Source: a candidate division SR1 bacterium CG_4_9_14_3_um_filter_40_9 (lineage in GTDB: Bacteria > Patescibacteriota > Gracilibacteria > Absconditabacterales > Absconditicoccaceae). Taken from it: a stretch of 15,019 nt of DNA. Positions within the stretch are counted from its first letter, which is position 1. Each line of letters opens with the position of its first letter. The notes beneath the pieces were generated by a model. The model saw only the letters and a list, made by a program, of their open reading frames with translations. It made no database searches and was not told the origin of the DNA. The position numbers were made by a program, and so were the translations under genes. This document shows, piece by piece, positions 3,624 to 14,606 of this stretch. The stretch lies in contig PFWQ01000025.1 of the NCBI GenBank assembly GCA_002791215.1, positions 2,167 to 17,185 on the forward strand, given 5' to 3'.

Positions 3624-3643
3624 GTTGTCTCCTTTCGCCTCGC

Positions 3644-3723
3644 GTCATTGCAAGGAGCATCGCGACGTGGCAATCTGCGGAATATTCAGACTCGTTAGAT
3701 TGCCGCACTTCGTTCGCAATGAC
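3644..3723. repeat. Dispersed inverted repeat, copy 1 (GTCATTGCRA ends)
   Basis: An 80-base imperfect palindrome. It begins GTCATTGCAAGGAGCAT, with GTGGCAATCT closing the left arm, and ends AGATTGCCGCACTTCG with TTCGCAATGAC at the right tip. The arms pair over about 27-33 bases with small loops. The same end sequences frame the element at 6492-6607. Elements with these ends are found between genes of many unrelated bacteria and look like MITE- or REP-type sequences. Here it sits behind the cytidylyltransferase gene and may act as a terminator. The tail just after it (CAGACTCGTCTG) is a further small palindrome. Confidence 0.8.
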
Positions 3724-3765
3724 AGACTCGTCTGATGACTGTTGTCTTTCTTAATACTAATTTAG

Positions 3766-3830: not shown

Positions 3831-4826
3831 ATGGACATCAGAAATTTTAGGAAAAACAAGTTCAACCAGAAGAAATTTTTGACGACATTTATCGTCGTTT
3901 TGATCGTGATATTCTTTTTTTACAAAATCAAAAATTTTTTCTTTAATCCTCCGCAGGAACAAATCTGGACCGGTGATATATTTAGCGGTCAACAGCTCTC
4001 CTCATACAAGAAATGAGATAAGATAAGATTTGCAGGAAGCTTGTCGGTCGACAATCATTTCCCTCTCTATACACATACTATCATCAGAGGTCCTGATGTC
4101 ATATGACTAAAAAGTACGACCATTAATCTCAACAACTACGTATGAGATATTGAAATTGTAGGCGAAATCATTGATTTTGATAAAAACTTACCGATAGTGG
4201 ATGTAGCTATCGTCAAACTCGCTAAACCATGACTCGTTATCAAAGGAAATACCTATCTTTTTATCAAAGATCTTTTGTATCTTGATTTCAATGACCAGCT
4301 ACAGCTCTCTGCTAACAAATCAGGGAAGAACATTACTATCTATTTCAACAAAGCACCGGTATTTGACGTGGAACGCTTTTTGTGCAGTAAGATACTGCAG
4401 GATAAAGACTGTAATTATATCATCGAAGGTTATCTTAGCTCTCAGAAAGAATTTTTTAATACGGAAGCATGATACACCTTTTACAAACATGCCGACAAGA
4501 CCTGGGCAGTATTTGATGGGAATATATTCTGATATATGTTTAAAAATATAGAAGATGACATGATCTTGGACATCTCTAATATGGTAAAGATAGTGAACAA
4601 AGATTTTGTCGTAGAGAATAAGAAGGATTTGATCAAAGAGAAATGTGCGAATGCTGATGATATTCTCAAAACTATCGGATTTTCCAAGGTAGGTTTCAAC
4701 GACCCGTATTTCCTTATGATCAGCGTAGAAGGTACGACCTCACACAGAAAACCATGCACCTGTAACATCACATTTGATCTGCGGAATGAATGGACGCCTA
4801 CGGAAGTGAATTTTGAAACTGAATAA
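3831..4826 (+). CDS. Membrane-anchored protein of unknown function
   Basis: A 331-residue protein I do not recognise. A basic N-terminus (MDIRNFRKNKFNQKK) is followed by one hydrophobic segment at about residues 17-33, so it is probably held in the membrane with the rest outside (inference). The exterior part is rich in beta-strand-like stretches; around 80-125 the pattern INLNNYVGDIEIVGEIID followed by PIVDVAIVKL resembles an OB-like barrel, though I cannot assign a family. Cys pairs occur at about residues 183/193 and near the C-terminus (PCTCN). Several in-frame TGA codons are read as Gly (for example 4014, 4104, 4137 and 4530). It has its own promoter, no Shine-Dalgarno, and faces greA tail to tail across a 68-base spacer that is almost entirely one inverted repeat array. 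Confidence 0.8.
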
Positions 4827-4831
4827 AAAAA

Positions 4832-4893
4832 ACGGTGAACGGATAACGTAGAACGTCTGCCGCGTACCGTTTACCATGTAACGTATACCGTAT
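4832..4893. repeat. Inverted array of 7-base units between convergent genes
   Basis: The left half runs ACGGTGA ACGGATA ACGTAGA (7-base units) and the right half ACCGTTT ACCATGT AACGTAT, then ACCGTAT. The right half is roughly the reverse complement of the left, so the whole can fold into a long imperfect hairpin. It fills the spacer between the convergent stops at 4826 and 4895 and could end transcription from both sides. Confidence 0.6.
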
Positions 4894-4894
4894 T

Positions 4895-5371
4895 TTACTT
4901 TACCTTAATAATTTTCACTTCTTTTCTTCAGGTCGCCAATCTCATCTTGACCGTTTCACCTGATTTTTTACCGAAGACGGCCACACCCAAAGGCGATTCC
5001 GGAGATATTTCCAACTGCGAAGCGTCATTGACCTTAGCTTCTCATGATCACACGATTATCACATCGTATTCTTTATCATCCTCTATCTTTACTGTCACTT
5101 TGGAACCGAAATCAACTACATCGCCCTTTTTCCTCTTATCCTCTTCAATAATCTCTACATTTTCCAACAATTCTTCAATTTCATTGATTCTGCTCTGGAT
5201 GAAATCCTTATCTTCCAATGCTGATTTATATTCGAAGTTTTCTGAAAGATCTCCCATGGCTTTAGCCTCAGATAATCTTTCCAGCACTGCAGGAAGTTTG
5301 GTTGTCTCAAACTCATTCAACTGTTGGACTAAATCTTCATATCATTCTTTGGTAAGGAAATTTGTTTTCAT
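4895..5371 (-). CDS. greA: Transcription elongation factor GreA
   Basis: A 158-residue protein, the normal length for the family. GreA enters the RNA polymerase secondary channel and stimulates cleavage of backtracked RNA. The N-terminal coiled coil (about residues 1-75) carries the tip motif GDLSENFEY with the acidic residues that act at the polymerase active site (canonical GDLxENAEY). The C-terminal FKBP-like domain runs from about 80 and includes ISPESPLGVAVFGKKSG, a hallmark region. Four TGA codons give Gly, in KEGYEDL, VGSGEA (two) and ATGRK. The ATG at 5371 is chosen because MKTNFLTKEGYEDL matches the usual GreA start; no Shine-Dalgarno precedes it. It lies downstream of the HPF-like gene, separated by a 10-base-period repeat array. 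Confidence 0.96.
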
Positions 5372-5383
5372 GGATAATAAATA

Positions 5384-5500
5384 TTGGATAAAACTTGATA
5401 AAAGTTGATAAAAGTTGACCCCGCAATATCTTATAGCATGGTTGATAAAAATGGTTATAACAATTTTCAACAATTTTTATCTATCTTTATCAATTTTTAA
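5384..5500. repeat. Inverted array of 10-base units (GATAAAA type)
   Basis: The left part has consecutive 10-base units of the form TTGATAAAAG (5384-5417) and again near 5440-5460. The right part has the reverse complement, units such as CAATTTTTAT, CTATCTTTAT and CAATTTTTAA (5461-5500). The two blocks can pair. The array fills the spacer between greA and the HPF-like gene and belongs to the same type as 9451-9680 and 12966-13050. Confidence 0.65.
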
Positions 5501-5830
5501 CTACTTCTTGGAAAGCCTTTCCTTGAAATGTTGGAAAGCATGATTGACTAGGTCTAATAAGATTTTGAATCCTTCTTTCTTGTAGATGAAATCTTCGCCG
5601 TCATATTTGAAAATGAAGTCAGCATCATATTTTTTCGAGTCTTCATGGTAAGTAATCGTATACTTGATAGCCACTTCTGCATCATCTTTTCTGCTAAACA
5701 CTTTCTTTAGATAAGAATCCAACTTGCCCACAATATTTTTTCAGACAATCTCTTGGGTAAACTTCTTATCTTGTTCGGACACGTTATTAAATTTCGGTAA
5801 CAATTGCACGTGAGCTAGAAGTTCTGTCAT
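5501..5830 (-). CDS. Probable HPF-like ribosome hibernation/S30AE protein
   Basis: A 109-residue small protein. The C-terminal 75 residues read LDSYLKKVF, a charged strand region (AEVAIKYTITYHED and DADFIFKYDGEDF), then LLDLVNHAFQHFKERLSKK. This order of helix, strands and a final amphipathic helix with D-x3-A-x2-HF-K-L-K is how the S30AE domain of HPF/RaiA ends, and the length fits the short form. I see no single diagnostic motif, so the family is a moderate call. One TGA gives Gly (IVGKNIVGK). The start at 5830 is supported by a promoter (5863-5890) placing the transcript start about 26 bases upstream. Stop is TAG. An alternative is an unrelated small protein of unknown role. Confidence 0.6.
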
Positions 5831-5862
5831 GAAGATAGTTTAATAGCTAAATCAGTACAGGG

Positions 5863-5890
5863 AATATAGTAAATGGCTTTGGAAATTCAA
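5863..5890 (-). promoter_or_regulatory. Promoter of the HPF-like gene
   Basis: On the minus strand: TTGAAT, 16 bases, TATATT. The expected start point is near 5856, about 26 bases before the ATG at 5830. Confidence 0.65.
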
Positions 5891-5896
5891 CACGAA

Positions 5897-5950
5897 TGAT
5901 AGGCTGATAGATTTGATAGAATTCCTATGTATCTATGACTCTATGATACC
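5897..5950. repeat. Inverted array of 8-base units (TGATAG type)
   Basis: Left units TGATAGGC, TGATAGAT, TTGATAGA; right units CTATGTAT, CTATGACT, CTATGATA, about the reverse complement of the left block. The array ends one base before the Nudix stop codon and could fold as its transcription end. Confidence 0.58.
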
Positions 5951-5951
5951 A

Positions 5952-6452
5952 TTATTCTAACTTTTGGAGGAACTGTTGCTTGATATTGTTATTCTTCTGA
6001 TCCTGCTTGATAAGCACATAACTTTTCCTAATCAATTCCCTGATATCATTGTAATAGATCAAGCCTAGGACATTGCTTAATGTCGCCCGCTTATAAACAC
6101 CTATATAGCCCTCTTTTTCTGTAATGTTGAGTATCGAAGGATCCCCGCCGAATTGCATGAGAAAATAGGTGACATCTTTATCCATCTGTCATTTGATGTT
6201 TTCCACATTTCTCAATTGCGTTGTTCCCAACTGTTGTTTGAGCTTTAACTGGTTGATAGGGATCCCTGTTTCTTCGCTAACCTCCCTCAACGCAGCTGTC
6301 TGGAGAGATTCTCATTGCTGAACCTTTCCTTTGGGGGCGACCCGTTCTATTTTTTTGGAAACTGCCAGTCTTTTGATCAACAGATATCTCGGTTCTCCAT
6401 TCGGCTCCAAATAATACACTATTCATCACGCGCTTTGAATAACATCTCACAT
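5952..6452 (-). CDS. Nudix hydrolase
   Basis: A 166-residue pyrophosphohydrolase that cleaves a nucleoside diphosphate linked to another group. The Nudix box is complete: G-KVQQG-E-SLQTAAL-REVSEETGI, with the REVSEE residues that bind the metal. The N-terminus MGDVIQSAGGIVYY is the usual first strand, followed by RYLLIKR. Five TGA codons are read as Gly (MGD, both of AGG, QGE, KGQ); one of them is the box-flanking Gly. Substrate unknown: the short form with a Lys/Gln-rich C-terminus could be a housecleaning or diadenosine-polyphosphate type enzyme. The ATG at 6452 is followed directly by a TGA codon, so under the standard code the gene would look like a short C-terminal fragment. Confidence 0.92.
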
Positions 6453-6491
6453 ATAATTAATTTAAAGCTAAAAGTAAAAAGTGATTGGTCC

Positions 6492-6607
6492 GTCATTGCG
6501 AACCCCGCACTTCTGCGGGACAGGCTCCGTGTGGTTTTAATCCTGAGGAACAATCTAGACTGTAAACGGTTAGATTGCTTCCCCCGAATAGTCGGGGTCG
6601 CAATGAC
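6492..6607. repeat. Dispersed inverted repeat, copy 2 (GTCATTGCGA ends)
   Basis: A 116-base imperfect palindrome with the same ends as the 3644-3723 element: GTCATTGCGA at the left tip, CAATCT closing the left arm, AGATTGC opening the right arm and TCGCAATGAC at the right tip. Each arm carries an extra local hairpin, CCCCGC-ACTTCT-GCGGG on the left and CCCCGA-ATAG-TCGGGG on the right, which explains the greater length. It lies between the Nudix start and the stop of the next gene, ending six bases from that stop, and may serve as that operon's terminator. Confidence 0.8.
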
Positions 6608-6612
6608 AACCG

Positions 6613-7113
6613 TTATGCTAAATTTTCAGGGATTATATCGGACTCGCTGAATCTGAAAACTTTTTTGAACACCCAGCCCGCCGGTCATGTAGCCGCAAGC
6701 ATCGTATTGAGCGGTGCATTTGCTGCGTCTATCCTATTATTTGTTACATTTTCTGTGGCGCCCTCTGGCAGATTAAAATCGTCTATCGCGACATTCTGAC
6801 CCTTGGAACTTAGTGTCTTGGTCTTTGATGCTAATGCCTTTTCTTTCTTGTTCTCCGATTCATTGGCAGCAAGACTCTCTTTATTGAGCTCTGCATCAAC
6901 CAGTCATTTTTCAAGATATTTGTCTGCATTCTCTTTCTGTAATGCATCGTTTTCTGCGACAGCTTTCTGCATCTCTTTTTTGCTGATTGAAGCCTCTTGA
7001 TTTTTTTCTGGTTTTGGCACCTCCGGAGTCTGCTTCTTGACCTTCTCATCAAGCTTTTTGAGCATGTCATCCACTCCCAATGGTATATTGCTCTTTTCTA
7101 TATTTTTACCCAT
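6613..7113 (-). CDS. Charged, probably coiled-coil protein of unknown function
   Basis: A 166-residue protein I do not recognise. Residues about 10-100 are dominated by Lys, Glu, Ala, Asn and Gln with heptad-like spacing (KKLDEKVKK, then KKEMQKAVAENDALQKENADKYLEK), suggesting a long helix or coiled coil. The C-terminal third turns to a less charged stretch with NAPLNTMLAATGPAGWVFKKVF. Two TGA codons give Gly. It starts nine bases after the hrcA stop and so is the second gene of that operon. GrpE often follows HrcA, but the GrpE sequence marks (DFxNYRKR and the beta-wing) are absent, so I do not call it GrpE. It ends against the dispersed repeat. Confidence 0.7.
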
Positions 7114-7122
7114 ATCGTCTGA

Positions 7123-7791
7123 TTATTTATGTAAAGAGTGTACTAATTTTCTTAATATTTTTACATTTTTTTTGTAATCCACTCTTGTAGGACCGATGAT
7201 ACTGACTACGCAATCGTAGTCCTCTACTGCCAATTTGGTATAGAGGCAGGAAATCACCGTATCCTTGTCTTCGATGAAAGTATAATAAATCTGGTCCCTT
7301 TTCATGATCTTGCTATCGATGAATCTTACGAGTCTCTTCTCTTCGATGAAACGGATTATATTTTTGGTCGCATGATATTCATCTACCATATCATCTCTGA
7401 GAAGGTTATTGATACCGAGATAATAATATTGATCATTTCTTACGAATCCTACTACTACCCCATCAGCGAGATTTCCGATGGTTTCCACAAGGTATTTGAC
7501 TCACTTGCGCACATCAGTGACTCCGGCATCAGTTTCTTCTTCTTTGACAGCGAGATATCATTCGATATATTGTGAAAGTCCTTGAACAGTCGGGATTCTT
7601 CATGATGAATTGTAGGGCTGGTAGACCATGCCTGACTTTTCCAGTTGATTGAGATATTTTCTGAGTGTCGATGGCGCAAACTGGGTATCTCCTGAGGCAT
7701 GCAAAAATTTGGAACCGACCGGTTCTCCTTTGAAGATATAGCTATCTATTACTACGTCCAAAAGCGCTAGTAACTTGGAATCCACTGCCAT
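7123..7791 (-). CDS. hrcA: Short HrcA heat-shock repressor
   Basis: A 222-residue protein matching HrcA, the repressor of groE/dnaK-type heat-shock operons. The N-terminal winged helix is clear: FAPSTLRKYLNQLEKSGMVYQPYNSSGRIPT, matching the family's S-x-T-IR-x3-x-LE-x-GY-x-QPHTSAGRxPT. The C-terminal end VSIIGPTRVDYKK matches the family's GPTRMxY signature. Family members are usually about 340 residues, so most of the inserted dimerisation part between these two ends is missing or reduced. Three TGA codons give Gly (SSGRIP, IEGYL, RKGVK). The promoter is at 7935-7962, and a hairpin-rich element lies in the leader. No CIRCE operator is visible in the leader or elsewhere in the window, so auto-control is not evident. 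Confidence 0.88.
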
Positions 7792-7825
7792 GAAAAGAGT
7801 TAAGAATGAAGGAGAAACAATTTTT

Positions 7826-7915
7826 CCTCCTTTTTTTAAAGGAGGGGGTGCCCTTTAGGGTGGAGGATTTTTAAAATCCCTCTGTCCATGCGGACTTCTC
7901 CCTTGACAAAGGGAG
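7826..7915. repeat. Three-hairpin element in the hrcA leader
   Basis: Three consecutive perfect stems: CCTCCTTT/AAAGGAGG (7826-7845), GGATTTT/AAAATCC (7865-7879) and CTCCCTT/AAGGGAG (7898-7915). They lie between the hrcA promoter and its start codon. The right part (GCGGACTT next to CCCTTG) resembles the element at 10709-10843, so this is probably a degenerate member of a related dispersed family. Confidence 0.6.
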
Positions 7916-7934
7916 ATATAATTGATACATTTTT

Positions 7935-7962
7935 ATTATACATATTTGCCTGCTTTAAGCAA
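7935..7962 (-). promoter_or_regulatory. Promoter of hrcA
   Basis: On the minus strand: TTGCTT, 16 bases, TATAAT, with TG directly before the -10. The start point near 7928 gives a leader of about 137 bases that contains the three-hairpin element. Confidence 0.65.
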
Positions 7963-7972
7963 GAGAAATTAA

Positions 7973-8014
7973 TAAAAAAAATCGTTAGCTAGGCCAACGA
8001 TAATTATATTTTTT
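7973..8014. terminator. Bidirectional hairpin terminator
   Basis: The stem ATCGTT/AACGAT (7981-8001), with an inner GC/GC pair in the loop, is flanked by a run of A on the left and a run of T on the right (plus strand). On the minus strand it is followed directly by seven T's, which fits termination of the ABC-ATPase operon that stops at 8082. Confidence 0.7.
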
Positions 8015-8070
8015 TGTTTTAAAATGCTAGTTCTTGACTGAGTTTTACCATAGGTATAGTTCTCGCATCC

Positions 8071-8096
8071 ATAAAAAATATTTACATATTTTTTAT
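8071..8096. repeat. Perfect AT-rich palindrome over a stop codon
   Basis: ATAAAAAATA, six bases, TATTTTTTAT: 10-base arms with no mismatch. The stop codon of the minus-strand gene (8082-8084) lies in the loop. Confidence 0.7.
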
Positions 8097-8561
8097 GGCG
8101 GTCGAACTAAGTTCCTTTTGCCGCAACATCCTATTGATAGACATTCTGGTGGGTGTCGCATTGCAAAATTCGTCGGCGGTGAGCAGAAGCAGTCATTTGA
8201 TTCCTTGCATGATATACGTCAGATTGTAGTCGTTGTCCCAGATTTTTTGGTGTATTTTGTGTTCGCCGACACGTTCCAATCATTTTTTGGATATGAAATA
8301 ATGTACGTCATGATCCGTAGATAATTCATGTTTTCTCGATGCATCATACTCCAACTTGTGGATCTGATTTGTACTCTGATTATCCAGCAAGGCCAGATAT
8401 TCTTTGAGCGCATCGATATTTTGATACACATTTTTGATTTTATAATAATGAAGATATTTGAGGAGTTCTCTCACTTCATCTTTGAGATATCAGGCAACAT
8501 CAACATCTTGAAGCTGCAACATTATATGTTCTATGAGTGTTTCCTTTTTTGTCGTACTCAT
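8082..8561 (-). CDS. Protein of unknown function downstream of the ABC ATPase
   Basis: A 159-residue protein I do not recognise. It is mostly helical in appearance, with no signal peptide and no strong membrane segment; only a short GIKGLLLL stretch near residue 130 is hydrophobic. It is rich in His, Lys and Tyr in the middle. Three TGA codons are read as Gly (VAGYL, KKGLE, IKGLL). The ATG at 8561 gives MSTTKKETL and lies 27 bases after the ABC ATPase stop, so both are probably one transcript. It is not a membrane permease, so it is not FtsX. The transcript end is the hairpin near 7981-8001. Confidence 0.72.
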
Positions 8562-8588
8562 ACGTATTCCGTATTAGGGGTAAAGCAA

Positions 8589-9263
8589 TTATACCATCAC
8601 ATGTAATTTGATCTTATGTTTTTCCTTGACGTAATTGAGAAGGTGGATGTCGTGAGTGATCAACAATACGGTGTTGCCCATGAGGTTAGTCTGAATGAGC
8701 AAATCTGCAATCTGCTGGGTATGCCCCCAGTCGAGATTTCCGGTTGGTTCGTCGGCAATCACAAATTCCGGTTCATGGATAAGCGCTCTTGCGATGCATA
8801 CTTTCTGTTTCTCTCCGGCGCTTAAAAATTTCACCGGAGTATTTACGAGTTTCTGTAAACCAAGCTTTGTTTTCATGGCATCGAATTTGCTTTCGATGAT
8901 GTTCTCTCCAAGGCCGTATATTTTTAATGGATACGTGATGTTCTCTTTCACGCTCAATTGTTCCATGAGTTTATAATCCTGAAATACTATTCAGATTTTT
9001 CTTCTATAAAGCTGTAATTCTTCATCTGAATATTTGGAGATGTCTTCTTTCTTGTGATAGATAGCTTTTTGCGGAGCTCTGAGTTCGCCTATCAGCAGTC
9101 TCGCAATTGTTGATTTTCCTGTGCCTGATTTTCCCATGATCACGAGAAAATCGTTCTTATAGAGAGCGAGATTGAATTTGCTGAAAAGAAGATATGGATT
9201 TTCTGGATATCCTCGTGTGAGGTCCTTGATGTCTATCAAGAGATTATGTTCCATCTGGTCCAT
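8589..9263 (-). CDS. ABC transporter ATPase, FtsE-like
   Basis: A 224-residue ATP-binding subunit, the length of FtsE (about 222). Walker A GKSGTGKS (44-51), Q-loop in GIVFQDYKL (Gln95), signature LSAGE (147-151), Walker B FVIADEPTGNLD (167-178), H-loop His204. The Q-loop region LYRRKIGIVFQDYKL is closest to FtsE; MacB/LolD ATPases share the ADEPTGNLD box, so those remain possible. The second signature residue is Ala where LSGGE is usual. Gly91 is coded by TGA. FtsE works with the membrane protein FtsX, but no FtsX-like permease lies in the window: the gene before is across a divergent spacer and the gene after is not membranous. Promoter at 9378-9405. A second ATG (residue 4) is an alternative start. 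Confidence 0.85.
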
Positions 9264-9274
9264 GAAATAATAGT

Positions 9275-9370
9275 GAAAGGAGTAAACTTAGTTAATTTAG
9301 TAAACTGAGATGGCTGCATACCTTATGGCTAAGTTTACACAGTTTTACTCAGTTTACCCAGTTTTACTGA
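9275..9370. repeat. Inverted array with 10-base period (AGTTTAC type)
   Basis: The right block (9332-9370) is four 10-base units of the form AGTTTACYCA / GTTTTACTCA in tandem. The left block (9275-9306) carries the reverse complement, AGTAAACTTA and AGTAAACTGA. The array lies within the leader of the FtsE-like operon on the minus strand, in the divergent spacer shared with pheS. Confidence 0.65.
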
Positions 9371-9377
9371 CATTATA

Positions 9378-9405
9378 AGTATACTCGCGAATCGTAATAT
9401 TTCAA
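9378..9405 (-). promoter_or_regulatory. Promoter of the FtsE-like operon
   Basis: On the minus strand: TTGAAA, 16 bases, TATACT. The start point near 9371 gives a leader of about 108 bases that spans the inverted array at 9275-9370. Confidence 0.6.
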
Positions 9406-9434
9406 AAAATAAGCGTTTCATCGACCTTTAAGTG

Positions 9435-9463
9435 TTGACAAGAAGCCCGAAAATGGTTAAAAA
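9435..9463 (+). promoter_or_regulatory. Possible pheS promoter
   Basis: TTGACA is a perfect -35 box; 17 bases on is TAAAAA, a weak -10. No better plus-strand candidate was found between 9264 and 9679. If right, the pheS leader is over 200 bases and is made of repeats. Confidence 0.35.
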
Positions 9464-9676
9464 TGGATAAAAATGGATAAAAATCGTTAAAACTAGGCTT
9501 AAAATAAGCCAAAATCTGGTTGAAAAGCTGGACTGAAAAGATAAACAATGGGTGAACGCTTCGCTGATAAACAATAGATAAACAATGAACAAGTTTATCG
9601 CATGAAGTGCCTTTATCGCGAATGAAATGAGCCTTTATCGCTCGCTTTGCGAGCTTTTATCATTTATATTTTGAAT
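9451..9676. repeat. 10-base-period arrays upstream of pheS
   Basis: Four tandem units ATGGTTAAAA, ATGGATAAAA, ATGGATAAAA, ATCGTTAAAA occupy 9453-9492. Next comes a small hairpin GGCTT/AAGCC near 9497-9511. Then GATAAACAAT occurs three times (about 9540-9585), and the reverse-complement type GTTTATCGC / CTTTATCGC four times (about 9592-9660). The overall layout is again one block of units followed by its inverse. Confidence 0.65.
9640..9658 (+). terminator. Hairpin plus T-run just before pheS (possible attenuator)
   Basis: The perfect stem GCTCGC-TTT-GCGAGC is followed by TTTT, 21 bases before the pheS ATG. It has the form of a weak intrinsic terminator inside the leader. No T-box sequence is seen nearby. 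It may instead be just the last unit of the repeat array. Confidence 0.4.
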
Positions 9677-9679
9677 TTC

Positions 9680-10705
<1,026 letters not shown>

Positions 10706-10708
10706 TTG

Positions 10709-10843
10709 ACAAACCCACCTAAATCCTCCCTTGTCAGGGCGGACTTGAAGGCATCTTGTTTAATTATATGTAAACGAACATAAAATATAAATATATTATT
10801 CCTTTGGCCTGCCCTGACAAGGGAAGGTCGGGAAGGGTTTGTT
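10709..10843. repeat. MITE-like inverted repeat after pheS
   Basis: Arms of about 33-36 bases: the left (10709-10741) contains ACAAACCC and CCCTTGTCAGGGC, the right (10808-10843) contains GCCCTGACAAGGG and GGGTTTGT. They are separated by about 65 bases of AT-rich sequence. Inside each arm CCCTTG/CAAGGG-type stems repeat. No transposase is present. It lies between pheS and the two small genes that follow. Confidence 0.78.
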
Positions 10844-10871
10844 TATTCTTTTATAACTTTATAAATTACGC

Positions 10872-11027
10872 ATGACACAAGCAAAAAGAAAACAAAAAGT
10901 AGATGATACTCATCGGGATTACTATAAGAATAACCCGGATTATATCCCAGTAAATGTACCTATAGAAGAGTTTATAGCAGTCTTGGAAAAGAGCATCAAG
11001 AAGGCTAAGAAAACTACAAAATCTTAA
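10872..11027 (+). CDS. Small basic protein, 51 residues
   Basis: An unrecognised short protein, MTQAKRKQKVDDTHRDYY and on to a Lys-rich tail KKAKKTTKS. The middle part (DYIPVNVPIEEFIAVLEKSIKKAK) looks like a short strand followed by an amphipathic helix. No TGA codons and no Gly. It is probably real because it lies in a compact block with the His/Cys peptide and a terminator, and the reading frame has normal codon use for the window. No Shine-Dalgarno precedes the ATG. A candidate promoter (TTGTTT, 15 bases, TATAAA at 10839-10865) would make it almost leaderless, but this is weak. Confidence 0.55.
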   Translation: MTQAKRKQKVDDTHRDYYKNNPDYIPVNVPIEEFIAVLEKSIKKAKKTTKS

Positions 11028-11057
11028 AATAACTTTTAACCTTATAACCCCATTATT

Positions 11058-11168
11058 ATGGCAAATATCCAGCAGGATGCGCATGCGCATCATCATCACC
11101 ATGATGGCGATCATGAATGCTGCGGCGAGGGCAAATGTAAGGACGATGGAAAATGCAAATGTAAGTAG
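11058..11168 (+). CDS. His/Cys-rich 36-residue peptide, likely metal-binding
   Basis: A very short gene, too small for most gene finders. The product has a short leader (MANIQQDA), a histidine cluster (His9, then His11-15, and His19), and a C-terminal cysteine part ECCGEGKCKDDGKCKCK: seven His and five Cys in 36 residues. Such composition suggests binding or storage of a transition metal such as Ni, Zn or Cu (inference, by analogy with small His-rich metal-storage peptides like Helicobacter Hpn). It starts 30 bases after the 51-residue gene and is closed by TAG and then a strong terminator 19 bases later, supporting a true gene end. No TGA codons; all Gly are GGN. Confidence 0.68.
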   Translation: MANIQQDAHAHHHHHDGDHECCGEGKCKDDGKCKCK

Positions 11169-11187
11169 TTGCCAAATGCATATATGA

Positions 11188-11215
11188 AAAATCTCCCAAC
11201 CGGGAGATTTTTTTT
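11188..11215. terminator. Strong bidirectional intrinsic terminator
   Basis: AATCTCCC-AACC-GGGAGATT: 8-base perfect stem with a 4-base loop, followed by a T-run on the plus strand and preceded by A's, so it also has a T-run on the minus strand. It ends the pheS-side plus-strand genes and can also stop transcripts from the minus-strand methyltransferase gene that ends at 11268. Confidence 0.88.
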
Positions 11216-11267
11216 GAAAGAAGTATTTTGTAAGTTAAAATTCTCCTAGAATATAGTGCAACCTCAG

Positions 11268-11918
11268 TTAAACGGTCGCTTCGTCTTTTACTTCAAGCAA
11301 ATTATTCCTCAGAGCGATTCTTAATTTATAAGACCTTTTTCTTAATCTTTGTTTGATTTTATTTATATTTAGATTTTCTGATTGAATACTCATTTTTATT
11401 TTTCCATTTGATTTAAGATGCTGCAATGCTTGTAAAATCAAATGATAAAGAAATTCGATTCTTCTTCCTTGATAATTAGCACCACTAATTCTATTTATTA
11501 GAACGCTCTCCGGAAAAATTATAAGATCGTATTTCTCATCGCCCAAATCAGTCCAGCTTCCATACATGTCAAAGATTTTTGATTTGAATTCTTTTGGCAA
11601 ATGTTTTGGATCAATATCAGAAAGTGTAATATTTTCTTTTTTAACACCTAATTTTACTAACAATCTCTCTAAAAATGCAGAACCGGAGCCAATGGATAGT
11701 AGCGTTTTAGAATCGTCGGATATCAAATCATTAATATCTGTTTTAGTAATCAATCTTGTATTCACGTGCCGACTCGGAGCGAAATAGAAATAAGAATTGC
11801 CCTCTGGAGTGTGAATATCATCACCATTTTTGAATTCAGAAAATAATTCTATTTCTAATTTCTTAATGGTTTCTAAATATTTTTTCTTATTTTCCGTATG
11901 CCTTTTTTCTTTTTCCAT
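11268..11918 (-). CDS. Class I SAM methyltransferase-fold protein
   Basis: A 216-residue protein. A basic helical N-terminus (about 1-30) precedes a Rossmann-like core: TLLSIGSGSAFLERLL (about 72-87) is the SAM-binding motif I (IGSGxxxLE), LSDIDP after it is the acidic end of strand 2, then KYDLIIFPESVL as motif IV-like strand, and LKSNGKIKMSI as the following strand. Substrate not known. The ATG at 11918 is preferred; a TTG at 11975 would extend the frame but overlaps the pyruvate kinase end by 23 bases. It lies 34 bases after that gene. Unlike its neighbours it has no TGA codon (all ten Gly or so are GGN) and is clearly more AT-rich, so it may be a later arrival. Confidence 0.75.
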   Translation of the reverse strand: MEKEKRHTENKKKYLETIKKLEIELFSEFKNGDDIHTPEGNSYFYFAPSRHVNTRLITKTDINDLISDDSKTLLSIGSGSAFLERLLVKLGVKKENITLSDIDPKHLPKEFKSKIFDMYGSWTDLGDEKYDLIIFPESVLINRISGANYQGRRIEFLYHLILQALQHLKSNGKIKMSIQSENLNINKIKQRLRKRSYKLRIALRNNLLEVKDEATV

Positions 11919-11952
11919 CTTGGCGACAAAAGAATGAAAATATATATATCTC

Positions 11953-12954
11953 TTACAATTTCTCTGCTTGCTCAATGACTTTTTTCATCACTTCTACGCA
12001 TTGGAGAGGATACTTACCGACTGCGGTTTCTCCTGAGAGCATGACGTAGTCGGCTCATTCACGTACTGCGTAAAAAATATCGCTCACTTCTGCTCTGGTA
12101 GGAATCGGATTGGTGATCATCGTCTCCAACATCTGCGTCGCGACGATGACGGGCTTATTTTTTTCTTTGCATTTTTTGATGATGTTCATCTGATGAACGG
12201 GAATAGTTTCGAGCGGTAATTCGGTTCATAAGTCCCCTCTCGCCACCATGATCATATCGCTCGCATCGATGATCTCATCGAGATTGCCGATTCATTCTTG
12301 GTTTTCTATCTTGGCCATGATTTTGATCTGGCTTCAATTATTTTGCTTGAGAAAATCTCTGAGTCACTGAATATCTTTTCCGCTTCTCGTGAAACTCATT
12401 GCTATGTGAGAGAATCCGTTCTTGGTAGCAAACAACGTGTCATCAAAATCCTGTGGTGTGAGCGTCGGCAAATCGCAATGGATGCCTGGCAGATTCACGT
12501 GTCTCCTTGAGCCTACGGTAAATGAAATTAATGCCTCCACAACCAATGACTCTGATCATTTTTCTATAACTTTTACATCAAAGAGTCCGGAATCAATTTT
12601 TATGATTGAATCTATCTGTGCATCGTTTATTAATTTAGGATAGTCACAGAAAAGATCACGATCCCCTCTTTTATTTTCTTTGACCACGATCCTGAATTTT
12701 TCTCCGATAGTGTAAGAAATCGGCGTCGTGAGAACTCAGGTTCTTATCTGCGGTCAGCTTGTATCCAAGAGAAGATCGAATTTTCCACCAAGTTTTTTTT
12801 CTACTTCATGGATATTATTTGCATCTTTGAGCGCGCTTTCTTGATCGTAATGCGGAAAATTGAATCTCAAAATCCTCACTCCATCATTGTAGAGCTTGGT
12901 CAGCATCTCTGTGTTGTTGATTGCAGGTCACATGGTGACGAGGATGTTGGTCAT
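11953..12954 (-). CDS. pyk: Pyruvate kinase, short form without C-terminal domain
   Basis: A 333-residue enzyme that makes pyruvate and ATP from phosphoenolpyruvate and ADP. Visible landmarks: [12 protein letters not shown] and [10 protein letters not shown] (the Arg and the NFSH-type strand), DTSGPQIRTG, the B-domain around 75-150, then [22 protein letters not shown] (catalytic Lys and metal-binding Glu), [42 protein letters not shown] and [11 protein letters not shown]. Nine TGA codons give Gly, including conserved ones in TMGP, SGPQI, ENQEGI and GDLG. It ends soon after [21 protein letters not shown], so the about 130-residue C-terminal domain that carries allosteric sites in typical 470-residue enzymes is absent. 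It lies 101 bases downstream of AMP phosphorylase across a repeat array. Confidence 0.95.
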
Positions 12955-12965
12955 GGAAGAAATAA

Positions 12966-13050
12966 AAATTGTTAAAACTTGTTAAAGATTGTTAAAACTT
13001 GTAGTGCCATTTTATCCATTTTCATCGATTTTTATCCATTTTTATCAAAG
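12966..13050. repeat. Inverted array of 10-base units between pyk and AMP phosphorylase
   Basis: The left block is 10-base units ATTGTTAAAA, CTTGTTAAAG, ATTGTTAAAA. A spacer (CTTGTAGTGCC) follows, then the right block TTTATCCATT, TTCATCGATT, TTTATCCATT, TTTATCAAAG. On the minus strand the right block reads ATGGATAAAA, identical to units at 9463-9482. It fills almost the whole spacer between the stop at 13056 and the pyk start. Confidence 0.7.
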
Positions 13051-13055
13051 AGCGA

Positions 13056-14606
13056 TTAGCGAATTTCGTACATCTTCTTTTGATCTAAGTATTCGATTGC
13101 CATCTTTATCTTCGGTTCTTCGCTCGCATAGAGAACATAGATGATATCTCATTTTTTCACTGCATCCCCTGTCTTCTTGCGGAGATACAATCACGCTTTG
13201 AGATCTATCGGTGCGCCCAACGTTCTTGCAACCACATTGAGTACTTTCATATCTATCGATTTCACTCTTCCGTCTTTTTCAGCTTTGATTTCTTTTTTGA
13301 TTTTTGCAAGTTCAAGCTGTTCAGATTTTATGTTTGGATTGCCGTGTTGTGCCTTGATGATCTCCTGCATCTTTCCCCATGCCTTGCCAGATTTCAATGT
13401 CTTCAATGCCAGCTCATCAGCAGCTTTTCCTTTGGCCATGCCGACAAGTTCTATAATTCTCGCTGCTAGGAATAATGCTTTATTCTGGAGATCCATAGGT
13501 CTGAGTTCGTGCTGTTGTAATACTCTCAATACTTCTCTCACTTGTAGAATGGCGCCGATTCCAGCTCCGATGGGTTCAATCGCATCAGTGATTTCTACAT
13601 GTACTTTCATTCATAATTTCTGTCCCACATATATAAACTGTTTTTTTAGTTTATTCGCTGTTTTCATGTCAGGTACTTTCGCTGTAGGTCCCATAGGGAT
13701 ATCGATAAGCGAATGATTGATGCCCATAGCATATTTTTTAGCCATAATGCTGACAATAGTTCTGGAGTACGATTGCATGGAGAGCGGATACGCAGCTTTG
13801 ATGAGTTTTTCATCAGCTGGTGCCAGATCCAATCCCCCGCCCCAAACTAAACAGGTATTATGTTTTCTTACTAATTCTTCGATTTGTTTCTTTGAAAAAG
13901 AGATATCCATCAGCACGCTTACGCATTCACCAGTTGCGGCTGGCGTAGTGATTGCTTTGGAAAATGTTTTCGGCATTTTGATACCCAGTGATGTCAATAG
14001 CGGAATCATGATCATAGTTGTTTCATTGCCTGGGACTCCTCACATACAATGTTTGTCTGCTACGACTCCTGGGAAATGGAGCATTTCACCAGTTTGGGCC
14101 ATGGCTTTTGCCATGATGTACAATTCATGATCTGTCGCTGGGTAGAAAAATCCTAACGCTGAATAATACGTCGTAAGCGTATCGGTGAAACGATTGGTAG
14201 CGATATCTTTCATGATAGAAAATGTTTCTTTTTCATTTAATTTCACTCCCTTGAGCGCCTTCTTGAGGGCTTCTACAGAAAGTGAACTATTTGAAGTAAA
14301 AGCTACAGCAACCATTTTCCCAGCTTCTATCTTGTATTTTTGCACTACATCTTTGAGAATTCCCACCTCTCCACGTTTGATATAGCTATGACTCAGATCC
14401 GCATCTACGACAATCTCTTCCCCTTCGTAGATGAGAGATATTTTATCCATACTGTTTATTCCATGATCCCGAGCCTCCTGCTCATTGAGCAATGCTGTAA
14501 ACGAATCTCCTTCCTGGATATCGATGAGTCTTGTTCTTACGTGGAAAGCCTGCCTAACTGGCAGGTAAACCTGCTTTGGTGATGTCTGTGTTTTTTTTGG
14601 ATTCAT
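13056..14606 (-). CDS. deoA: AMP phosphorylase (archaeal-type DeoA)
   Basis: A 516-residue enzyme, close to the about 503 of archaeal AMP phosphorylase, which splits AMP with phosphate into adenine and ribose-1,5-bisphosphate. An N-terminal domain of about 90 residues is present, as in the archaeal type and unlike ordinary thymidine phosphorylase (about 440). Core marks: TGEMLHFPGVVADKHCMGGVPGNETT (phosphate site; one Gly of MGGVP is TGA at 14037), KAITTPAATGE, the hallmark WGGGLDLAPADEK, PLSMQ, IMAKKYAMGINHSLIDIPMGP, and a C-terminal KKTGDAVKKGDIIYVLYA barrel-like region. Four TGA codons in all. In Absconditabacteria, Gracilibacteria and archaea the product goes on through ribose-1,5-bisphosphate isomerase and RuBisCO to 3-phosphoglycerate; neither gene is in this window. 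The promoter is at 14646-14673; there is no Shine-Dalgarno. Confidence 0.94.

Follow-up and report, generated by a model that had tools for sequence, protein, structure and literature searches.

Intergenic spacers of a candidate division SR1 bacterium (Patescibacteriota; Absconditabacterales) carry arrays of short degenerate tandem units, many of them facing a second array of the reverse-complement type, and these arrays occur genome-wide, abut coding ends and often take the gene's stop codon as a unit. At two orthologous gaps, the rpoB-rpoC spacer and the convergent spacer at 4827-4894 of the window, the units differ by species, or a plain hairpin or classical terminator stands there instead. 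The window is the whole 15,019-nt stretch that was analysed (contig PFWQ01000025.1, positions 2,167 to 17,185; G000:C64:2167-17185), and its source genome is a 922,604-base draft in 95 contigs that is 88.5% complete. We tentatively favor a reading in which rapidly replaced, heptamer-type palindromic arrays fill hairpin slots behind stop codons, partly as terminator substitutes.

Array frequency was measured in 40 contigs of the source genome (379 of 922 kb), in which a simple codon-usage caller found 308 genes. Twenty of these contigs, including that of the window, were chosen via matches to the array at 9451, and the other 20 were picked by number. When the best period between 5 and 14 in each 40-700 bp spacer was compared to 40 dinucleotide shuffles, 88 of 199 spacers beat all 40, with about 5 expected; these comprised 67 of 137 spacers in the array-chosen contigs and 21 of 62 in the contigs picked by number. 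With a fixed cut-off, the contigs picked by number had arrays in 24 of 67 spacers, compared to 1.5 in shuffles. Spacers beating all shuffles were found in both codirectional orientations (++ 21/56, -- 50/99, together 71/155) and among divergent (15/24) and convergent spacers (2/20). Same-period array pairs no more than 60 nt apart were inverted in 22 cases and direct in one, with seven ties (n=30, cut-off 9), and the left arm was A-rich in 19 of the 22 inverted pairs. A stricter count of adjacent arrays (cut-off 11) gave 17 inverted, two direct and five ties, with 21 further neighbors differing in period. A lack of excess over shuffled spacers would have refuted the sequence-only reading of this DNA, and an excess was found. 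The commonest periods among spacers with z >4 were 7 (37) and 10 (24), and at cut-off 11 period 7 accounted for 65 of 148 arrays and period 10 for 40 across both contig samples; period 10 was nearly confined to the array-chosen contigs, with 1 of 33 arrays in the others. The excess extends to other members of the family, with arrays in 26/73 spacers of G012 (4.5 in shuffles), 15/34 of G014 (5.5), 12/25 of G020 (3.0) and 11/19 of G004 (4.8, few of period 7). G008 (5/49 vs 3.5), G005 (6/18 vs 4.8) and G010 (0/8 vs 1.0) were near background, and the remaining genomes were small or intermediate.

Many codirectional spacers read, in gene sense, stop codon, array, loop, inverted array and start codon; others are single-armed. 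Arrays abut 98 of 394 coding ends, compared to 0-0.7% in shuffles, lying within 12 nt of 47/151 codirectional stops, 33/151 codirectional starts, 6/38 convergent stops and 12/54 divergent starts. The contigs picked by number alone gave 20 of 134 coding ends (0.5 in shuffles), and in spacers of at least 200 nt, 28 of 72 arrays were within 12 nt of a coding end, where 5.5 were expected. Downstream of the stop codons of 234 genes, a further TAA or TAG was found at +7 in 29, at +14 in 30 and at +21 in 22, compared to a mean of 10.9 for the remaining 30 offsets from 3 to 35 (range 2-23, the 23 being at +24). The same three offsets had 8, 7 and 7 of 86 genes in the contigs picked by number, over a background of 4.0. 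This recurrence indicates that the gene's stop codon is often itself an array unit. Arrays abutting starts contain 6.6% G and 45% T in the sense strand, and starts without arrays are likewise T-rich and G-poor. We also observed a T-rich, G-poor region at -10 to -30 before starts in the source genome.

The rpoB-rpoC spacer was compared in 16 genomes, with gene identity confirmed by Pfam. In genus g13 the last 30 nt ahead of rpoC are similar in seven of nine species, and the block directly 3' of the rpoB stop was flagged as a palindromic array in 10 of the 16 genomes, with most units differing: AAAATGA in G012, GGGAGCA in G323, AACAACT in G325 and G324, GATACAT in G326 and G320, a GAGATGA-like unit in G022, a 9-mer in G342, AGCTTCT in G001 and TAGCTTC in the source genome. 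Both arms or one long array were flagged in five of these ten genomes, and in the other five one arm was flagged and its partner recognized by eye. Inspection by eye also showed degenerate arrays in G322 and G321, plain stems in G018 and G341 and another dispersed palindrome in G020; the 50-nt spacer of G343 had no array or stem. Folding of the whole spacer gave z <= -2.0 in 11 of 16 genomes, and the plain hairpins of G018 and G341 reached -5.6 and -4.2. Left arms paired with their own right arms at a mean of -18.8 kcal/mol, compared to -9.3 kcal/mol with the right arms of other species, and the own right arm ranked first or second in 11 of 16 genomes.

Spacers of the window were compared as well; for most of the genes in 3831-10705, syntenic matches exist in ten relatives. 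The convergent spacer 4827-4894 was usable in nine genomes. Three have head-to-head heptamer arrays: the source genome (z -1.3), G323 (z -3.1) and G326 (z -4.8; left arm flagged, right arm by eye). Five have what was judged by reading to be a classical terminator of A-tract, stem and T-tract, namely G012 (z -5.4), G324 (-3.7), G022 (-6.0), G320 (-2.9) and G020 (-4.3), and G322 has neither. Of the seven genomes compared at spacer 12955-13055, the source genome, G012, G323 and G326 have arrays, G321 has a plain hairpin, and G322 and G020 have neither. Spacer 5372-5500 measures 129 nt in the source genome, 160 in G324, 96 in G012 and 25-76 in the other eight of 11 genomes, with arrays flagged in the source genome, in G324 and, as a short one, in G326, and degenerate by eye in G012. 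The divergent spacer 9264-9679 has arrays in 6 of 11 genomes, and since a core similar in relatives lies between its two arrays, both are probably in 5' leaders. The gene at L036:15902-17251 was too poorly conserved for its convergent junction to be compared. That several species have a hairpin in such a post-stop slot, whether it consists of unrelated repeats or is a terminator, points to selection on shape and place.

In the favored reading, units would arise and expand by replication slippage and be copied between loci within one genome. The palindrome would be retained wherever a hairpin behind the stop helps to form the 3' end, to terminate transcription in part or to protect the upstream message. 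The lineage is one in which no Rho could be detected: a search for its RNA-binding domain drew no match in any of 23 family genomes and matches in 9 of 14 controls. We propose that any folding sequence would suffice, so that the unit could be freely swapped, and that start-side arms would survive only if suited to U-rich, G-poor leaders like those of genes without arrays. The sequence-only reading had also named slippage expansion, which the tandem form fits; copying between loci is suggested as well, by a 30-nt GC-rich stretch that is identical inside 10-mer arrays at two loci (the L018 (C68) spacer 1884-2157 and L023:6979-7122) and by one unit pair that occurs, by eye, at two loci of G323. 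Shared unit order points weakly in the same direction, being found at p<=0.05 in 190 of 723 array pairs; the 26% is not a clean rate, because only pairs already scoring high when unshuffled had been admitted, which favors shared order. An extended version, in which transcript-end hairpins of these Rho-less, TGA=glycine bacteria would be sequence-free slots whose palindrome is kept while genome-specific tandem units rewrite it, so that terminators evolve by repeat replacement rather than base substitution, appears unlikely to us.

A number of results weigh against the favored reading. Convergent spacers, where terminators matter most, are the poorest in arrays (2/20), and the divergent start ends that abut an array (12/54) have no upstream gene to end. 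Start-side arrays match other starts in make-up, and a constraint on leaders is therefore the simpler account of them. rpoB and rpoC are usually co-transcribed, so a full terminator between them would be costly, and the rpoB-rpoC spacer of the source genome itself folds with a z of -0.9; in the arm-pairing comparison G022, G018, G341 and G343 fail, perhaps partly from the splitting of blocks at their midpoint. Array spacers of the window fold no better than shuffles, with z of -1.3 (4827-4894), -1.2 (5372-5500), 1.3 (5831-5951) and 1.4 (12955-13055), and post-stop windows with an abutting array fold more weakly (mean z -0.95, 15/46 below -2) than those without (-1.66, 37/88). The arms of 10-mer loci pair worse with each other than re-paired arms do (complementarity 0.0012, energy 0.0002, from 10,000 permutations); for the 7-mers, own arms pair better than re-paired ones (p 0.057; mixed families). 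In G012, the convergent spacer L238:17046-17166 has a one-arm array next to a terminator-like stem, where G320 has a terminator, and the convergent spacer L241:18858-19017 likewise holds an array together with a terminator-like stem, so terminator substitution does not hold throughout. In several members of the family, arrays are near background or the rpoB-rpoC spacer is short.

Arrays rarely combine a GC-rich stem with a following T-run (1/49 post-stop, 0/4 convergent), and terminator-like sites were rarer where an array is present than where none is, which would fit the favored reading: 1/49 vs 10/109 in codirectional windows (p 0.17) and 0/4 vs 5/11 in convergent ones (p 0.23). Neither difference is significant, and the detector is weak (10/109 array-free windows vs 4/109 shuffled). 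The region contains 13 terminator-like sites, of which two lie within window arrays, both in 9496-9654. The suggested terminator role is supported at a single orthologous convergent spacer, with arrays in the place of relatives' terminators, and did not generalize, given the scarcity in convergent spacers (2/20), the arrays at 12/54 divergent starts and those between rpoB and rpoC. A pure terminator model was rejected as a full account because of the divergent-start arrays, the small number in convergent spacers and the weak folding.

The rival that survives best is a neutral by-product, in which slippage and fold-back copying at replication would build arrays wherever they are tolerated, gene-side spacers being safe, and the palindrome would be a trace of the mechanism with no function. 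We consider this a real possibility, if a somewhat doubtful one. It would account for the freedom of the unit sequence to change, for the arrays at spacer 5372-5500 being extra blocks in some species only, as its lengths show, and for the weak folding and the avoidance of pairing by 10-mer arms. Also in its favor, the N-terminal domain of MutS gave no match in the array-rich source genome, which is 88.5% complete, or in G326, the other 21 of 23 genomes having it. Against neutrality, other array-bearing genomes have MutS, arrays stand in the place of relatives' terminators at 4827-4894, and plain hairpins occupy the rpoB-rpoC site in G018 and G341.

REPIN-type mobile hairpins, moved by a single-copy Y1 (HUH) transposase and inserting after stop codons, appear improbable. 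A Y1_Tnp match was present in 7 of 23 genomes, the source genome (C68:589-951) and six others, among them G012, G322, G321, G324 and G014; the source genome copy has 15 in-frame TGA codons, indicating that it is adapted to the TGA=Gly code. Orthologous sites that are either filled or near-empty, the unit pair shared by two G323 loci and the shared unit order among the preselected pairs would fit such mobility, but array-bearing G323, G325, G326, G020 and G342 gave no Y1_Tnp match, loops mostly differ from copy to copy, the ends vary and there is no constant core motif. It is equally improbable that the arms are translation elements, with U-rich, G-poor repeats before starts and all-frame stop codons after stops: the composition before starts, the lack of a Shine-Dalgarno-like motif (0/47 array starts vs 13% of 173 others), in-phase stops at a period that is not a multiple of 3 and the translational effect of REPs within 15 nt of the stop described for E. 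coli (PMC12306157) agree with it, but the head-to-head form is left unexplained and TAA/TAG within 30 nt after stops occur nearly equally in the three frames (0.45, 0.40, 0.47). Triple-frame stop insurance was rejected on the basis of this near-equal frequency.

Within the window, Tandem Repeats Finder (TRF) and an inverted-repeat search both recover the arrays, and half of the six spacers first proposed to share one head-to-head design fit it well (4832-4893, 5385-5505 and 12962-13046), the other three only loosely. The convergent spacer has a left arm of 7-mers ACGGTGA/ACGGATA/ACGTAGA (4832-4855, plus strand), 3' of the gene at 3831-4826, and a right arm of reverse-complement type, GTACCGT/TTACCAT/GTAACGT (4864-4890, minus strand), ahead of the greA stop. 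Upstream of the start of greA, which is on the minus strand, lies the 10-mer arm TTGATAAAAG (5385-5418, plus), followed by the arm CAATTTTTATC (5459-5505, minus) immediately 3' of the stop of the 5501-5830 gene and overlapping that gene. Two weak 8-mer arms, TGATAGAT (5896-5920, plus) and CTATGTAT/CTATGACT (5924-5950, minus), follow, the latter adjoining the stop of the NUDIX gene (5952-6452). The last head-to-head pair consists of 10-mer arms TAAAAATTGT/TAAAACTTGT (12962-13002, plus), upstream of the pyruvate kinase start, and TTTTATCCAT (13010-13046, minus), 3' of the stop of a pyrimidine-phosphorylase-like gene (13056-14606).

Two sites share the divergent spacer. Between its core and the ABC-transporter ATPase gene (8589-9263, minus) are the 9/10-mer arm AGTAAACT (9273-9306, plus) and its partner AGTTTACYCA (9329-9368, minus). 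The core itself (TATAAGTATACTC ... TTGACA, 9371-9445) is similar in relatives when compared by eye and possibly holds both promoters of the divergent pair; promoter-like sites were predicted at 9405-9378 (minus) and 9435-9464 (plus), with a region total of 25 vs 26.0 in shuffles. Between the core and pheS (9680-10705), the site at 9450-9676 has a clean left 10-mer arm, ATGGATAAAA (9450-9492, plus), and a right part without a matching reverse-complement array. This mixed remainder (9540-9676) contains an 11-mer pair GATAAACAATA at 9566-9586, then GCCTTTATCGC copies spaced 22 nt, and a GC stem with a T-run at 9640-9654. The site at 4832-4893 is a 7-mer array, and 5385-5505 and 12962-13046 are clear 10-mer arrays; 9273-9368 is head-to-head, with a period that is not constant as had been proposed, since TRF gives 9, 10 and 19. 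A distinct unit per locus had also been claimed, and this did not survive for the 10-base units at 5384, 9451 and 12966, which belong to a single family (NTNGWTAAAA). The placement of the sites at transcription-unit borders is partly right, with one convergent, three codirectional and two within the one divergent spacer. By eye, other dispersed palindromes lie at about 3640-3730, 6490-6610, 7825-7915 and 10710-10835, of types TCATTGCGAAC...TTCGCAATGAC and CCTCCC...GGGAGG; the former type recurs in spacer L015:15448-15622, and the rpoB-rpoC spacer of G020 contains a palindrome resembling it.

In our searches the 10-mer family stood out in the source genome alone. The pattern GWTAAAANTNGWTAAAA has 62 matches in 26 contigs of this genome, where its reversed control has 14, and no more than one match in any of the 48 other family genomes, the 49 genomes of that search including no second member of the genus. 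A three-unit form had no match in 285 other genomes of the phylum, drawn without same-family members. At 12 of 15 paired 10-mer loci the two arms are of opposite unit classes; one guess is that perfect palindromes were lost or mis-assembled. A-tracts with a period of ~10 nt were seen by eye in the pheS leader of relatives G022, G324 and G325, 3' of a common TTGACA (window 9435-9500, loci L350-L359). Such tracts may be the ancestor of the 10-mer family. DNA curvature caused by phased A-tracts could be relevant to the arrays of period 10 and to no others.

Genes adjoining arrays in the window are greA, pheS, pyruvate kinase and those for the NUDIX protein, the ABC-transporter ATPase and the pyrimidine-phosphorylase-like protein. 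Coding coverage of the contigs picked by number was 82% with TAA and TAG as the only stops and 33% with table 11, showing that TGA is read through; the caller trains on long ORFs (open reading frames), so low table-11 coverage exaggerates the gap. Coverage with TAA/TAG-only stops was also the higher in each of 14 stretches from 12 sampled family genomes. TGA as glycine (table 25) fits the Gracilibacteria/Absconditabacteria group of Patescibacteria. Rfam gave no match at gathering score across the window. At 11058-11168 (plus), a 36-codon ORF was noticed by eye that encodes a His-/Cys-rich peptide (a His run, then CC and CKC motifs), which may bind metal.

Arrays of this form had been thought to belong to no named class, but degenerate heptamer arrays, including inverted pairs, are published for Xanthomonas (PMC4692102), and the P6b hairpin of the Nostoc trnL intron consists of heptanucleotide repeats (PMC3488679). 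The Xanthomonas GGGAATC and Nostoc GGGGA(T/C)T arrays are described as intergenic and behind the upstream ORF at an average of 28 nt, with 70 and 75 inverted neighboring pairs in two Xanthomonas genomes, between which length and sequence vary (PMC4692102). The arrays here are likewise degenerate 7-nt tandems, intergenic, behind ORFs and with inverted neighbors. As described there, the Xanthomonas and Nostoc arrays have one G-rich unit type, studied as a G-quadruplex; the present ones differ in having many unit families, a 10-nt family, stop-codon phasing, orthologous palindromes with differing units and, at one site, a replaced terminator. The Nostoc trnL intron is a group I intron. Its P6b region resembles the present arrays in that degenerate heptanucleotide repeats, of two motif classes and varying in copy number, make up a hairpin (PMC3488679); it differs in lying within one intron and not being scattered over intergenic spacers. 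In Beggiatoaceae and cyanobacteria, TAACTGA repeats likewise form heptamer arrays dispersed over intergenic regions, which in one genome mostly lie immediately upstream of starts, but they are reported as almost only direct (169 sets in the main genome, one inverted) and of a single fixed unit (PMC4679880). A degenerate 7-nt tandem unit, which defines heptamer short tandemly repeated repetitive (STRR) or simple sequence repeat (SSR) arrays, is present in 65 of 148 arrays and absent from the 40 of period 10.

REP/BIME/REPIN elements are dispersed palindromes, some close behind stops and with effects on translation (PMC12306157). The present arrays share the position, within ~15 nt of the stop in REPs and within 12 nt of 47/151 codirectional stops here, but have 7-10 nt tandem units, an incomplete Y1 link and no fixed REP core, unit families varying between loci and species. 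In five relatives, bidirectional intrinsic terminators are found at the convergent gene end where the array lies here, but the arms of the arrays are imperfect and mostly lack a GC stem plus U-tract. A 9-mer coding repeat and long stem-loops flanking a gene, described in Gracilibacterium (PMC6851277), are a different object. The literature searched, which did not cover most subscription journals, held nothing on such arrays in this bacterial group. Heptamer arrays are common in other bacteria as well: three copies of TAGTCTT in tandem were found in at least 111 stretches of named genomes from several phyla, with Bacteroidota, Gammaproteobacteria and Patescibacteria among the matches listed. 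Among 110 of these arrays with enough flank (nine near sequence ends being left out), an open frame of at least 100 codons ends inside the array or no more than 7 nt ahead of it in 23 cases in sense and 8 in antisense. Inverted heptamer arrays are known from Xanthomonas, and those described here are a further variant.

If the favored reading is true, these arrays would be a bacterial regulatory part that is conserved in shape and place and not in sequence, and that is renewed by tandem-repeat turnover. It would give a testable role to heptamer arrays, which have been described in several phyla without a settled function. It would also bear on how bacteria without Rho, these and the cyanobacteria as described in PMC13289151, end their transcripts.

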